A stretch of DNA of 51,348 bases, taken from positions 1-51,348 of IMG/VR virus record IMGVR_UViG_3300037247_001029. One strand, 5' to 3'. A program made the position numbers and the translations under genes. Under the pieces are notes generated by a model. The model was not told the origin of the DNA, did no database searches, and was given only the letters and a program-made list of their open reading frames with translations. This DNA is from a virus. This document shows, piece after piece, positions 341 through 41,671 of this stretch (position 1 is its first letter; each line of letters starts with the position of its first letter).

Positions 341-963
341 TGAAGCATCGGATGACGATCGTAATGGCGATAGTGGTGGTCCTGGCGGTCTCGCTAGGCG
401 GGACTGCGCAGGCGGTGACGGTCCAATCTGTAAACGCCGTCGCCGTGGCCACCACGACGCCTCCCACGCTGATCTCGATCGCAGGCGGCAGGGTTGCCCA
501 TAGCGGCACCTTCCAGGCCGATATCATCGCCGACAGCTTCCCCAACGGTCTGGCGGGCTTCCAGGTCACTGTGTCGACAGTTGACCCACAGATCGCCGTG
601 GCCTTCCAATTCCTGGTGCCTGATTACGGCTTGACCGCCGCGACCTCAACTGCCACATCCGTCACAATGGCCGTGGTCGATCTCAAGGACTTGGTCCAGC
701 CGGGTGCTGAGAACGTCGTGATCGGGACGATCACCTTCCTGGGGCGGAATGAGGGAATCACCCCGATTGACATCACCGTGTTGCGGATGGACGACCAGGA
801 CGGCAGTCCGATATTGACATCAACGGCGGTGGGGTTGCTGACGGTCTCCAACTCACGGGACCTCGATGGCGATGGCATCACCGAGGACATCAACGGCAAC
901 GGATTCTTCGACTTCGCGGATGTACTGGAGTTGTTCAGGATGCTGCTGGCGCTCCCGCCATAG
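340..963 (+). CDS. Secreted cohesin-like / dockerin-like protein
   Basis: The protein has 207 residues. ATG 340 is chosen because it overlaps the preceding stop and is followed at once by a signal peptide: KHR, a hydrophobic stretch, then cleavage near AQA at about residue 25. Residues about 40-165 form a beta-rich domain resembling a cohesin (GLAGFQVTVS, then GTITFLG). The C-terminus has a calcium-binding dockerin-like duplex, DLDGDG followed by DINGNGFFDFADV. The family pattern is common in cell-surface proteins of archaea and some Chloroflexota. A phage copy inside a glycan island suggests a surface-displayed adhesin or host-surface modifier; that role is inferred. Confidence 0.65.
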   Translation: MKHRMTIVMAIVVVLAVSLGGTAQAVTVQSVNAVAVATTTPPTLISIAGGRVAHSGTFQADIIADSFPNGLAGFQVTVSTVDPQIAVAFQFLVPDYGLTAATSTATSVTMAVVDLKDLVQPGAENVVIGTITFLGRNEGITPIDITVLRMDDQDGSPILTSTAVGLLTVSNSRDLDGDGITEDINGNGFFDFADVLELFRMLLALPP

Positions 964-37342: not shown

Positions 37343-40300
37343 GTGACCCTAGAGCAGCAAGACCAGGCCGTAGTCCAGTCGGTCCGCTATCAGCCCGAAC
37401 CCAACGAGGGCGACTACGGTGTCCAGCTTGACGCCCTGGTCCTGGGCCTGGCCACCGCCGCCGATGAGTTCGAGCCCTGGGGCAGGGACCCGGTCAAGCG
37501 TGACAGGCAACTGCGGAACTTCTGGCCCACCGAGCCCATCCTGGCATCCGCCGTCTACTCGCTGGCCATCCGCAACGCCGCCTTCTCATGGACCCTGGAC
37601 GGACCTGAGCGCACCGTCGAGGCCATCCAGGACATGCTGGCGATGGCCGACCTGGGCGCCGGCTGGCAGTCGTTCTCGTCCAAGCTGTCCGTCGACGTGA
37701 TGACCCAGGACAACGGCGGCTTCATCGAGGTCATCCGTGAGCGGGACGAGGTAGACGCGCCGGTCATCGGTATCGCTCACCTCGACGCGGGCCGCTGCGT
37801 CCGCACAGGCAACGCCGAGACCCCGGTCATCTATCAGGACGTGCTGGGTCGCTTCCATCGGCTGAAGCGCCACCAGGTGGTAGCCGTGGCCGAGCTGCCG
37901 TCGCCGGTCGAGACGATGCGCGGGATGCAGTTATGCGCGGTGTCACGGGTCCTGCGGGCCGCGCAGTACCTGCGGGACATCGGGGTGTACCAGCGGGAGA
38001 AGGTCAGCGGCAACAACCCCAATCAAATCCACATCGTGTCGGGCGTCGGGTCGAAGCAGATCAGCGACGCCATGCAGACACACAAGGACACCCAGGCCGC
38101 CAAGGGCATGATGCGCTTCATCATCCCCCTGATCATTGGGTCCATCGACCCGTCGGCCACCGTGTCCAAGGAGACCATCGACCTCAAGTCGCTGCCCGAT
38201 TCGTTCAACCTGGACGACTCCATGCGGTGGTACATCAACCAACTCGCCCTGGGATTTGGCGTGGACTACCAGGAATTCGCGCCGCTGCCTGGCCGGGGCA
38301 TCGGGTCGTCAACCGAGGCGTTGGTCCTGCACTTGAAGTCGCGGGGCAAAGGACCGGGCTTCTGGATGAAGCTGCTGGAGTACACCTTCAACTTCCACGG
38401 CCTCATTCCCCAAAACGTCACGTTCAGCTACGACGAGCAGGACGTTGAGGCGGACCTGGAGGAGGCCGAGCTTGGGAAGATCGTCGCCGACACGTTGGAG
38501 GCGCTGATACGGTCCGCCACGTTGGACCCACAGGCTGGCCGCCAGATACTGCTGGACGACGGCTACATCGACGAGGAGACGTTCGACCGCCTGTCCGAGA
38601 CCGGCGATCTCACGTCGAACGTGACCGCCCAGGATGTCGAGCCGGTCGAAAACAAGGCCGTCAGTCCCGTGGCGCTGGTCAAGGCCTCACACCTGATGCG
38701 ACGCAGGCGCAGGCGCAAGAAGCCCAACGGCAAGAAGGCGCCCCGTGTACGATACGCTCAGGTCGCTGACTTTGCCGAGGCCGAGCGGGTCGCCCTCGAG
38801 GAGGAGATCGCAGCAGCGATGGATGACGTACTGGCCCGCGCCATGCGCCGTGCCCGTACGATCATGGGCCTGGAGGGCGTCGAGGCGGCGAAGCGGGGGC
38901 GGTTTACCGCGTTGCGCCTGGGCCATAAACAGACCCCTGACGACATCATCGGGGACGAGGTGTTCTGGCGGGACTTCCGCGAGGACGCAATCGTCACCAT
39001 GACGCCCTTCGCCCGCCGCGGTGCCCTGGAGGCCATCGACGCCAACATCGCCGTCGGTGTTGGGGTCGACCTTGAACTGGTCAACCAGCAGGTCCTGACC
39101 TTCACCGGCACCTACACCAACGAGTGGTGGGCCGCCCTGGAGGGCACGAGCCGGGCACAGCTACGGGATGCGGTCGCTAGCTGGCAGCAGGGCGGCCTTG
39201 GCAGCCGGGGCTTCCCCGACCTGGTCAAGGCGATCGAGCCGACTTTCGGACGGGTCAGAGCACGCCGCATAGCGATAACGGAGGCGACCAAGATCTTCGA
39301 TGGTGGGAACCTGATGGCCCACGAGGCAGGGGGGATCAACGAGGAGGAGTGGCAGACCGCGCGGGACGCCCGCGTCGACGACATCTGCCGCCCCCTGGAT
39401 GGTCAGCGGTTCCCGATCAACGCCGGGCCACGGCCCGTGACGGGAACTCATATCGGCTGTGTGCTGCCCGGAACGCGGGTTTGCGCAACGGGCGTGGAAC
39501 GGGCCTACCGGGCGTGGTACGAAGGTTCGGTGCTAGAACTGGCGCTCCATGGAGGCCAGCGGCTTACCGTTACCCCGAATCACCCGATACTGACCCCTGA
39601 CGGATGGGTCGCGGCTGAGTTCTTGCGCCCAGGCAGCGATGTAATCAGCGGCTCCTTCGGTGAGGGGGAAGTCGCGCTTGGAGGCAAAGACGTAGCAGAT
39701 CGCCCACCCCTGATCGAAGAGATATTCGCTTCGCTCTCGGTGGTTAGACGGGTAGGCGTTACGACTACGGAGTTCCACGGCGATGGACGGGGCATGCACG
39801 GCGACATCGACGTTGTAGGCTCCGACGGCGAGTTGCGCTGTGCATGTGGCGCCTCTAGCCTCCAACCACTCCATGAGGGCCATCTCATCGGGCGTGCTGT
39901 ACCCCAGGCTGTCCTGGTAGGTGGCCGCGTGCTGGGTCTGTTCGCCCGGCGTGGCTTTGCGGCCCCGCATCGCGTTATTAGCCGATGCGGTGAGGTCCTT
40001 ACGGCCCTGTGGGGTCAACTGGCCCATACGTTGCAGGTTGGCCTCAGACCGACCGCGTGGGACAACGCCAGCCTCGCTCAGGCGCTTGCGCACCAGGGTG
40101 CGAGACACATCGAAGGCAAGACCCAGCGCGAGTTCGGACTCACCGGCCCGGTACCGGGACACGAGCGCGGCAGCGTCCACCTCCTTGCGGGAGCCGCGCA
40201 CAACGACGTGGGCCTCCCGGAGGATGCGGTAGAACTGGGTTTGGGAGATGGGGAATCGCTGGCGCAGGTCCTGGATCGTTGCGCCTTCCCGGTAGGCCTG

Positions 40301-40456
40301 AGTCAGATAATCGCGGTCACACGGCGTGAGTATGCGGGTCATGTCTACGACCTCCAGACGAACACGTCATTGTACCAGGCTGCCGGTGTCATTGTACATA
40401 ACTGCCGGTGCGCGCGGTTGCCAGTAGGGCCTGGGGGCGAGACCCTTGGCCGCTAA
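37343..40456 (+). CDS. Portal-MuF fusion protein interrupted by an intein
   Basis: The precursor has 1037 residues. Residues 1 to about 430 form the portal domain (LALGFGVDYQEFAPLPGRGI near 305-325). A basic stretch (RRRRRRKKPNGKK, about 453-466) links to a MuF-type head morphogenesis domain (RARRIAITEATKIFDGGNLM, then EEEWQTARDARVDDICRPLD). The conserved MuF ending HIGCRCARLPV is split by residues 706-1020, an intein. Removal would leave 722 residues. The portal forms the dodecameric DNA gate, and MuF domains are packaged or aid head assembly. Confidence 0.85.
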   Translation: MTLEQQDQAVVQSVRYQPEPNEGDYGVQLDALVLGLATAADEFEPWGRDPVKRDRQLRNFWPTEPILASAVYSLAIRNAAFSWTLDGPERTVEAIQDMLAMADLGAGWQSFSSKLSVDVMTQDNGGFIEVIRERDEVDAPVIGIAHLDAGRCVRTGNAETPVIYQDVLGRFHRLKRHQVVAVAELPSPVETMRGMQLCAVSRVLRAAQYLRDIGVYQREKVSGNNPNQIHIVSGVGSKQISDAMQTHKDTQAAKGMMRFIIPLIIGSIDPSATVSKETIDLKSLPDSFNLDDSMRWYINQLALGFGVDYQEFAPLPGRGIGSSTEALVLHLKSRGKGPGFWMKLLEYTFNFHGLIPQNVTFSYDEQDVEADLEEAELGKIVADTLEALIRSATLDPQAGRQILLDDGYIDEETFDRLSETGDLTSNVTAQDVEPVENKAVSPVALVKASHLMRRRRRRKKPNGKKAPRVRYAQVADFAEAERVALEEEIAAAMDDVLARAMRRARTIMGLEGVEAAKRGRFTALRLGHKQTPDDIIGDEVFWRDFREDAIVTMTPFARRGALEAIDANIAVGVGVDLELVNQQVLTFTGTYTNEWWAALEGTSRAQLRDAVASWQQGGLGSRGFPDLVKAIEPTFGRVRARRIAITEATKIFDGGNLMAHEAGGINEEEWQTARDARVDDICRPLDGQRFPINAGPRPVTGTHIGCVLPGTRVCATGVERAYRAWYEGSVLELALHGGQRLTVTPNHPILTPDGWVAAEFLRPGSDVISGSFGEGEVALGGKDVADRPPLIEEIFASLSVVRRVGVTTTEFHGDGRGMHGDIDVVGSDGELRCACGASSLQPLHEGHLIGRAVPQAVLVGGRVLGLFARRGFAAPHRVISRCGEVLTALWGQLAHTLQVGLRPTAWDNASLAQALAHQGARHIEGKTQREFGLTGPVPGHERGSVHLLAGAAHNDVGLPEDAVELGLGDGESLAQVLDRCAFPVGLSQIIAVTRREYAGHVYDLQTNTSLYQAAGVIVHNCRCARLPVGPGGETLGR
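39533..40342 (-). CDS. Antisense homing endonuclease nested in the intein (Vsr/EDxHD-like)
   Basis: The protein has 269 residues. ATG (complement 40340-40342) has GGAGGT 8 nt upstream. Two helix-turn-helix units occur at about 9-53 and 56-102 (LVSRYRAGESELALGLAFDV, then SRTLVRKRLSEAGVVPRGR). A basic linker leads to a nuclease domain at about 146-269: DEMALMEWLEARGA, then YNVDVAVHAPSIAVELRSR, then NHRERSEYLFDQGWAICYVF and QYRVIRGNGK. Candidate catalytic residues are E158, D179, E190 and H201, like Vsr/EDxHD homing nucleases such as I-Bth0305I. Its codons are in exact register with the intein codons on the other strand. High-GC antisense frames can stay open by chance, but the family match and ribosome site argue for a real gene. 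Confidence 0.75.
   Translation of the reverse strand: MTRILTPCDRDYLTQAYREGATIQDLRQRFPISQTQFYRILREAHVVVRGSRKEVDAAALVSRYRAGESELALGLAFDVSRTLVRKRLSEAGVVPRGRSEANLQRMGQLTPQGRKDLTASANNAMRGRKATPGEQTQHAATYQDSLGYSTPDEMALMEWLEARGATCTAQLAVGAYNVDVAVHAPSIAVELRSRNAYPSNHRERSEYLFDQGWAICYVFASKRDFPLTEGAADYIAAWAQELSRDPSVRGQYRVIRGNGKPLASMERQF
40369..40377 (-). promoter_or_regulatory. Possible extended -10 promoter for the antisense endonuclease
   Basis: On the minus strand TGGTACAAT forms an extended -10 (TGnTACAAT), about 27 bases before the ATG and just ahead of the GGAGGT. No good -35 is seen. Another TACAAT lies further upstream near 40391-40396. The site lies in the DNA coding for intein block G, so it would travel with the element. 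Confidence 0.35.
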
Positions 40457-40469
40457 CGAGGTATAGGCG

Positions 40470-41090
40470 ATGGCACTTGGGGATATACTTCGGTCGTTCG
40501 CTGCGCCTGCGGCCACGCCGACGGGGTTGACGTTTGACGGCCAAGCCATATGGGTGGCCTCGAACGCAACGGCGCAGATTTATCAGATCAACCCACGGAA
40601 CGGGACAATATTACGCTCCTTCCCAGCGCCAGCAGCGCAGCCGCGCGATCTCGCATGGGATGGACGTAGCCTGTGGCATATATCTATAGACACGGCTACT
40701 GTCTATCAACTTGATCCCAGGAACGGCGCCGTCATGCGCTCATGGGGCAGCCCGGCGGCGTTTCCTAATGGACTGGAGTTCGATGGCCGGAGTATATGGG
40801 TGTCGGAAGGTGGGACGCTCACGATAAGCGAATGCGATCCACGCGATGGGACCATCTTACGGACTATCCCCACGCCAGTCACACCAACCGGCCTAGCATG
40901 GGATGGGCGTGTTCTATTTAATGTCGTGCTAGGCCCTGCACGTGCCCAAGTACTCGCCCCTCGGACCGGGCTTTTATTGCGTCAGTTCGGCATGGCACTC
41001 GGCGCCACGCGTGGGGGAGCGATTGATGGACGTTCGCTCTGGGTCGTTGATAGCACGAGCAACCTCGTTAGCCAGATAGCCCTACAATAG
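40470..41090 (+). CDS. Beta-propeller repeat protein, 206 aa
   Basis: ATG 40470 follows GAGG. About five repeats of 42 residues appear, each containing a variant of WDGRSLWHIS, DPRNGAVMRSW or FDGRSIWVSE. The pattern resembles YncE/NHL-type propeller blades; five repeats would be a partial or small propeller, or would need to oligomerise. Codon use is visibly less GC-biased than in flanking head genes (ATA, TTA, CTA), so it looks like a recent insert between portal and gp10-like genes. Confidence 0.65.
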   Translation: MALGDILRSFAAPAATPTGLTFDGQAIWVASNATAQIYQINPRNGTILRSFPAPAAQPRDLAWDGRSLWHISIDTATVYQLDPRNGAVMRSWGSPAAFPNGLEFDGRSIWVSEGGTLTISECDPRDGTILRTIPTPVTPTGLAWDGRVLFNVVLGPARAQVLAPRTGLLLRQFGMALGATRGGAIDGRSLWVVDSTSNLVSQIALQ

Positions 41091-41597: not shown

Positions 41598-41671
41598 CGC
41601 GGGGCATGCCGTGGGGCGAGGGGGTCTCATACGCCCTCTGTGGTCAGGTTCGACTCCTACCCCCGCTACCA
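41598..41671 (+). tRNA. tRNA-Met(CAT)-like element with reduced D-arm
   Basis: The acceptor CGCGGGG (41598-41604) pairs 6/7 with CCCCGCT (41661-41667), followed by A and encoded CCA. The position 1-72 pair is mismatched, as in initiator tRNA. The anticodon arm is GGGGT-CTCATAC-GCCCT with anticodon CAT. The T-loop TTCGACT is canonical, but its stem has one bulged C. The D-arm would be a 4-bp stem with only a 4-base loop. It may be a divergent phage tRNA, a degenerate copy or an integration-site relic. Confidence 0.5.

Follow-up and report, generated by a model that had tools for sequence, protein, structure and literature searches.

The window considered here is the whole of a 51,348-nucleotide viral contig (virus record G000; IMG/VR virus record IMGVR_UViG_3300037247_001029, positions 1 to 51,348), and the element of interest is an intein in its portal-MuF fusion gene, opposite which lies an antisense gene for a homing-endonuclease-like protein. 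The features of the locus are these:

37343..40456, plus strand: host gene, a portal-MuF fusion open reading frame (ORF) of 1037 amino acids with the intein and 722 once spliced (PHROG portal and head-morphogenesis matches; Pfam Phage_Mu_F, 1.7e-6)
39458..40402, plus strand: intein of 315 amino acids, Cys1 to Asn315 (Cys706 of the ORF, at 39458-39460, to Asn1020, at 40400-40402), with Cys+1 at 40403 (Pfam Intein_splicing)
39458..39481, plus strand: block A, CVLPGTRV, from the sequence
39551..39607, plus strand: block B, GGQRLTVTPNHPILTPDGW (core TPNHPILT), with T39 and H42; double-coded with the nuclease C-terminus (YRVIRGNG), the sense His kept in 77/77 and the antisense codons under strong synonymous constraint
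39773..39784, plus strand: sense FHGD (residues 106-109) opposite antisense IAVE (187-190, Glu190 being predicted as catalytic), 12 nucleotides with codon choice constrained from both strands
40337..40360, plus strand: block F, GHVYDLQT, the complement of which holds the GGAGGT and ATG of the nuclease gene; Leu codon CTC in 97/119, antisense ATG or GTG opposite the His
40379..40402, plus strand: block G, AAGVIVHN, from the sequence
39533..40342, minus strand: homing-endonuclease-like gene of 269 amino acids, with helix-turn-helix (HTH) units at 7-43 and 57-90 and a Vsr/DUF559-type nuclease domain at about 146-256 (E153, D179, E190, R204), from an AlphaFold2 model, PDB profile and fold matches, and homologues
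40355-40350, minus strand: Shine-Dalgarno sequence GGAGGT of the nuclease gene, from the sequence; GA at -12/-11 is kept in most loci
40369..40398, minus strand: promoter-like site TGTACA-18-TACAAT with a TG extension, opposite block G (1 found versus 0.2 expected; enriched in relatives)

The sense strand encodes an intein with all of the splicing residues, namely Cys1, the TxxH of block B, the C-terminal His-Asn and Cys+1; C1, T39, H42 and N315 are invariant across an alignment of 76 sequences. Pfam Intein_splicing is matched at 4e-8 with the whole ORF as query, at 3.5e-9 with the intein alone, and by 74/76 related inteins, in agreement with the blocks A, B, F and G that an earlier, sequence-only reading of the window had placed between Cys706 and Asn1020. 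The Hint part of the modeled intein is confident and close to the Mtu RecA intein (Z 14.1, root-mean-square deviation 1.4 over 106 residues), residues 126-270 are mostly disordered, and the FHGD segment is of intermediate confidence. Since the sense product models as a Hint domain plus this largely disordered stretch, it has no detectable nuclease of its own, as the same reading had supposed.

The antisense ORF at 39533-40342 begins with ATG, is in exact codon register with the intein and occupies 810 of its 945 nucleotides (86%). Its length of 269 residues, register, GGAGGT and extended -10-like site were all re-derived here, but its ends, earlier placed opposite blocks B and F, are only partly so disposed. 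The start does lie exactly opposite block F, where the CAT of His295 is the antisense ATG; the far end continues beyond block B to a point opposite intein residues 26-28, so that all of block B shares its nucleotides with the nuclease C-terminus.

With 77 relatives, AlphaFold2 modeled the antisense protein with a mean predicted local distance difference test (pLDDT) score of 93.3 and a predicted template modeling (pTM) score of 0.72; besides the HTH helices at 7-43 and 57-90, the model contains a nuclease domain of alpha/beta type. VIA-align Z scores of the nuclease model were 10.3 for 3hrl, 10.0 for Vsr (1cw0) and 9.1 for the homing endonuclease I-Bth0305I. A sequence-profile search of the PDB with the antisense protein found 3hrl (1e-6) and the HTH protein 2lvs, and no sequence match to I-Bth0305I at E<=1, and Pfam MTES_1575 matches 39/77 relatives at E<=0.01 (best 1.5e-10). 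Homologues in phage records complete this picture, and Pfam, the PDB profile search and the fold agree with the two HTH units and Vsr/EDxHD-like domain first read from the letters. D179 and E190 are invariant in relatives and E153 and R204 nearly so, and acidic positions that align with 3hrl are among these residues; the comparison with the EDxHD catalytic set covered E153, D179, E190 and R204.

Signals for starting the antisense gene are shared among loci. Opposite the His codon of block F there is an antisense ATG in 93/141 loci and GTG in 17/141, the consensus around the start being GGAGGTYRTARACATG. The block F Leu codon is CTC in 97/119 versus 31% elsewhere; the contrast is approximate, since some of the sites behind the 31% lie over the nuclease C-terminus. 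The extended -10 of the window's nuclease gene, TGGTACAAT, is at 40377-40369. Given the ATG, the Shine-Dalgarno sequence and the promoter-like site opposite blocks F and G, independent expression of the nuclease is plausible.

A tblastn search with the antisense protein found 127 phage records. The match was opposite an annotated MuF, head-morphogenesis or unnamed gene in 11/12 of the first regions opened, and in all 24 loci compared the nuclease was in register and free of a sense stop. Viral and genome contigs were also scanned by motif, using the nuclease's own motif alone in order to remove host-gene bias. This antisense-motif scan gave 225 loci, every one of which matches the nuclease profile and has an intein N or C splicing module opposite (225/225 for each), as called with profile hidden Markov models of the N and C modules. 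A reciprocal scan by the sense motif only gave 96 new loci, and in 96/96 the nuclease is encoded on the strand opposite the intein blocks. Because the arrangement recurs in all 225 antisense-motif loci and all 96 new sense-motif loci, the antisense ORF is not a product of chance, and what the sequence-only reading had treated as a single case belongs to a widespread class.

The sense ORF is unbroken in the window and in 223/225 motif loci. Nine loci were first scored as closed on the sense strand; those inspected end 5' of the nuclease start, save L110 and L209, in which the sense frame is broken inside the overlap (by a nonsense codon and a frameshift, respectively) and the nuclease ORF is still open. 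Host genes fall in six families (MuF, minor capsid 2, terminase, uracil glycosylase, SNF2 helicase and dCMP deaminase), and the insertions occupy conserved positions, among them the MuF CxC and the zinc site of dCMP deaminase. In Virus Rctr197k (L006) the gene at 616-1968 annotated as head morphogenesis is actually a dCMP deaminase with an intein of this class at the zinc site; its label was probably carried over from intein similarity.

Substitutions between pairs of relatives are distributed differently in the overlap and the extein. Within the overlap, sense position 1, which is the antisense wobble, changes fastest (51/8/29 and 81/19/39 for positions 1/2/3); in the extein sense position 3 does so (4/4/25 and 41/31/92). 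Between the window and its closest relative, L013, changes at antisense codon positions number 20/6/40, with identity of 79% for the antisense protein and 66% for the sense protein, and antisense identity exceeds sense identity in every pair. Constraint is thus not confined to the sense frame, and the antisense frame is the more conserved. Sense stops can arise only from antisense TTA, CTA and TCA, each of which has synonyms, so the sense frame can stay open at no cost to the nuclease. In 31 AT-rich loci, picked for a full intein (internal interruption occurs in only 2/225 motif loci), 378 stop-making antisense codons would be expected from local codon usage and 0 were seen; the free-standing nuclease relative in Acinetobacter phage IME285 (L009) has 12. 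Judging from these patterns, both strands are under selection in the overlap. The arrangement is present at 35-50% GC as well.

Selection from the two sides can be followed codon by codon at the FHGD/IAVE motif. In 158 clusters the Val of the antisense [VI]AVE is encoded by GTG in 155, the Ala by GCC in 153, and the Val/Ile by a codon ending in C in 156. This bias is present in AT-rich loci too, the adjoining Gly codon is free, and the codon choice therefore keeps the sense [FL]HGD. Among the loci of the reciprocal scan, TTC encodes the sense Phe in 96/96 (68% elsewhere) and GGC the sense Gly in 96/96 (44% elsewhere), a choice that in turn keeps the antisense Glu and Ala. With codon choice biased from both directions, it follows that both proteins constrain the same 12 nucleotides. 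A DNA-level element as the sole cause of FHGD conservation is disfavored, because changes there track codon synonymy on either strand and the free-standing L009 is without it.

Patchy distribution of the element is seen near and far. Alleles of the window's own gene with the exact junction, THIG|CRC, uninterrupted by an intein are found in L252-L255 and L257. Among Gordonia phages at least 80% of the joined, empty MuF site is present in 99 records and the nuclease in 15, and Guernseyvirinae and relatives have the joined empty site in 398. Escherichia phage Snoke and Salmonella phage vB_StyS-sam have inteins that are 96% identical within exteins that are only 70-78% identical, and the Gordonia phages Fosterous and Kewpiedoll have exteins that are 96% identical and different inteins. 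Horizontal spread of the element between phages can be read from these comparisons. Escherichia phage fEg-Eco06 (L016, 1856-3793) has its intein at MuF Cys222 and the closely related Snoke at Cys244, so that each phage is without the other's intein. The nuclease of phage IME285 (L009, 455-1348) is the only free-standing relative found; it is convergent with, and just downstream of, an intein-free MuF gene, its opposite frame is not open, and it may represent an ancestral or intronless-homing form.

The best explanation, which we regard as very probable, is a mobile intein in which one strand of the DNA encodes splicing and the other strand homing. This is what the sequence-only reading had proposed, and it is now backed by the recurrence, the antisense wobble, the double constraint, the intein-free alleles and the nuclease fold. 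The sense strand would supply a splicing-competent Hint intein within portal-MuF, read from the host transcript, in which the stretch between blocks B and F would be a long, poorly ordered filler. The antisense strand would supply an endonuclease of HTH-HTH-Vsr/DUF559 type as a protein apart, translated from an ATG and ribosome site of its own opposite block F, on a transcript probably initiated at the promoter opposite block G. Host-gene alleles that lack the intein would be cut by this nuclease and then acquire the element through repair from a copy that has it. Apparent at the level of sequence are the architecture and its recurrence, the double constraint, the fold, the existence of intein-free alleles and the horizontal spread; splicing, antisense expression, cleavage and homing are steps that we infer, and this counts against the explanation, as do three further points. 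The window's nuclease falls under the Pfam MTES_1575 gathering cut-off (21.7 versus 38.2 bits). The promoter signal opposite block G is only an enrichment, an extended -10 scoring at least 6/8 being found in 52/141 loci versus 4.2% of control windows that are unmatched for encoded residues. The explanation assigns no role to the sense FHGD motif.

Other explanations account for less of the evidence. The antisense protein might be real and yet not a homing endonuclease, serving instead as a DNA-binding regulator or as a mismatch-repair-like or anti-rival nuclease that happens to sit in inteins. Nuclease activity is a prediction from the model, DUF559/Vsr folds serve other roles too, and resolvases, transposases and the repeat-binding protein Cbp1 have HTH units similar to those seen here. 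Against this, the acidic nuclease residues are invariant (D179, E190) or nearly so (E153), the fold matches that of I-Bth0305I, the protein is tied to inteins in several unrelated host genes, and patchy intein presence with transfer between phages is as homing predicts; we consider this alternative improbable.

Still less probable is that splicing of the sense intein has been lost and that what was inserted is simply a nuclease gene in reverse orientation, with the read-through polypeptide tolerated. There is a precedent of a kind in the out-of-frame HNH insert of the ShiLan domain, proposed as tolerated without splicing (PMC11855218), but here C1, the T and H of block B and the terminal N are invariant, the Hint model is close to the Mtu RecA intein, the insertions are at conserved sites (the CxC of MuF, the dCMP deaminase zinc site), and sense stops are strictly avoided. 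A group I intron with an antisense nuclease gene is rejected on the lack of any Rfam match at E<=1 in 39000-40900, and a fractured-gene split intein on the unbroken sense ORF. In-register antisense frames often are open in GC-rich DNA, and a 1196-codon open frame surrounds the L007 match. That only the sense strand is coding is nevertheless extremely unlikely, the AT-rich loci and substitution patterns ruling out a GC-driven chance ORF, and the higher antisense identity, the confident nuclease fold with Pfam and PDB relatives, the free-standing homologue that has no open opposite frame, and the L110 antisense ORF intact over a sense stop all speaking against it.

Beyond the window, it is likely that these loci make up a broad, undescribed class of two-strand phage mobile inteins, in which purifying selection would act at the same time on a splicing protein and a homing nuclease encoded by codon-aligned, antisense-overlapping genes. 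Ordinarily an intein and its nuclease are fused in a single polypeptide, and after fixation of the allele the nuclease is prone to decay. A nuclease on the opposite strand could be expressed apart from the late host gene, and the tying of reading frames could slow its decay; because blocks B and F and FHGD, a new intein motif, share codons with the nuclease C-terminus, start and catalytic Glu, neither part could be freely lost or changed without affecting the other. The class would also offer an unusually clear natural example of long genes that overlap in antisense, one in which selection can be seen on both strands and a free-standing relative serves as control, and would account for many unannotated nucleases under MuF-like genes in well-studied phages of Salmonella, Escherichia, Pseudomonas and Gordonia. 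Cultured phages among its members make the model directly testable.

Several neighboring features were also recorded. Downstream of the host gene, 40470-41090 (plus strand) encodes a 206-amino-acid protein with repeated propeller-like motifs that is more AT-rich than its neighbors, has no PHROG match and is unaligned in L252-L255; it is probably a recently acquired extra gene. A tRNA-Met (cat) gene lies at 41599-41667 (plus strand), in the structural gene region. Idiomarinaceae phage 1N2-2 (L005) has, besides its antisense intein nuclease, an annotated HNH endonuclease gene at 389-907 (plus strand), near the major capsid gene; the structural genes are on the other strand.

Canonical inteins with an in-frame LAGLIDADG or HNH nuclease (e.g., PI-SceI) are alike in the Hint module, the conserved insertion sites, the position of the nuclease between blocks B and F, and the existence of intein-free alleles. 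Their nuclease is fused in frame, however, whereas that of the window is a separate protein on the opposite strand. The split inteins that Dassa is said to have described in 2009 (NAR 37:2560) reportedly have a free-standing nuclease between the intein halves and are similar in having the nuclease gene apart from the intein polypeptide and in their association with phage-like genes; they differ in that the window's intein is unbroken and overlapped by its antisense nuclease gene.

No published antisense intein nuclease was found in the literature searched, which did not take in a 2025 preprint on actinophage inteins (10.1101/2025.01.02.630785) that may overlap. The ShiLan domain of a phage methylase conceals an out-of-frame HNH endonuclease (PMC11855218). 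As in the present case, a homing nuclease uses a different frame of an insert through which the host frame stays open; there, however, it is the third frame relative to the host gene, the nuclease is of HNH type, and no splicing module was found in the element. Group I introns with antisense homing endonuclease genes, such as Didymium squamulosum L2066 (PMC9548176), likewise have a nuclease gene antisense to both the splicing element and the host gene, but the intron is RNA and its peripheral loop houses the nuclease, so no stretch encodes two proteins. Finally, the EDxHD/Vsr-like I-Bth0305I, listed with group I intron homing endonucleases (PMC3943268), shares the nuclease-domain fold (Z 9.1) and a phage setting with the window's nuclease, and its family joins the nuclease to a separate DNA-binding region (PMC3943268), as is seen here; by profile the window's nuclease is nonetheless closer to DUF559 (3hrl) and MTES_1575.

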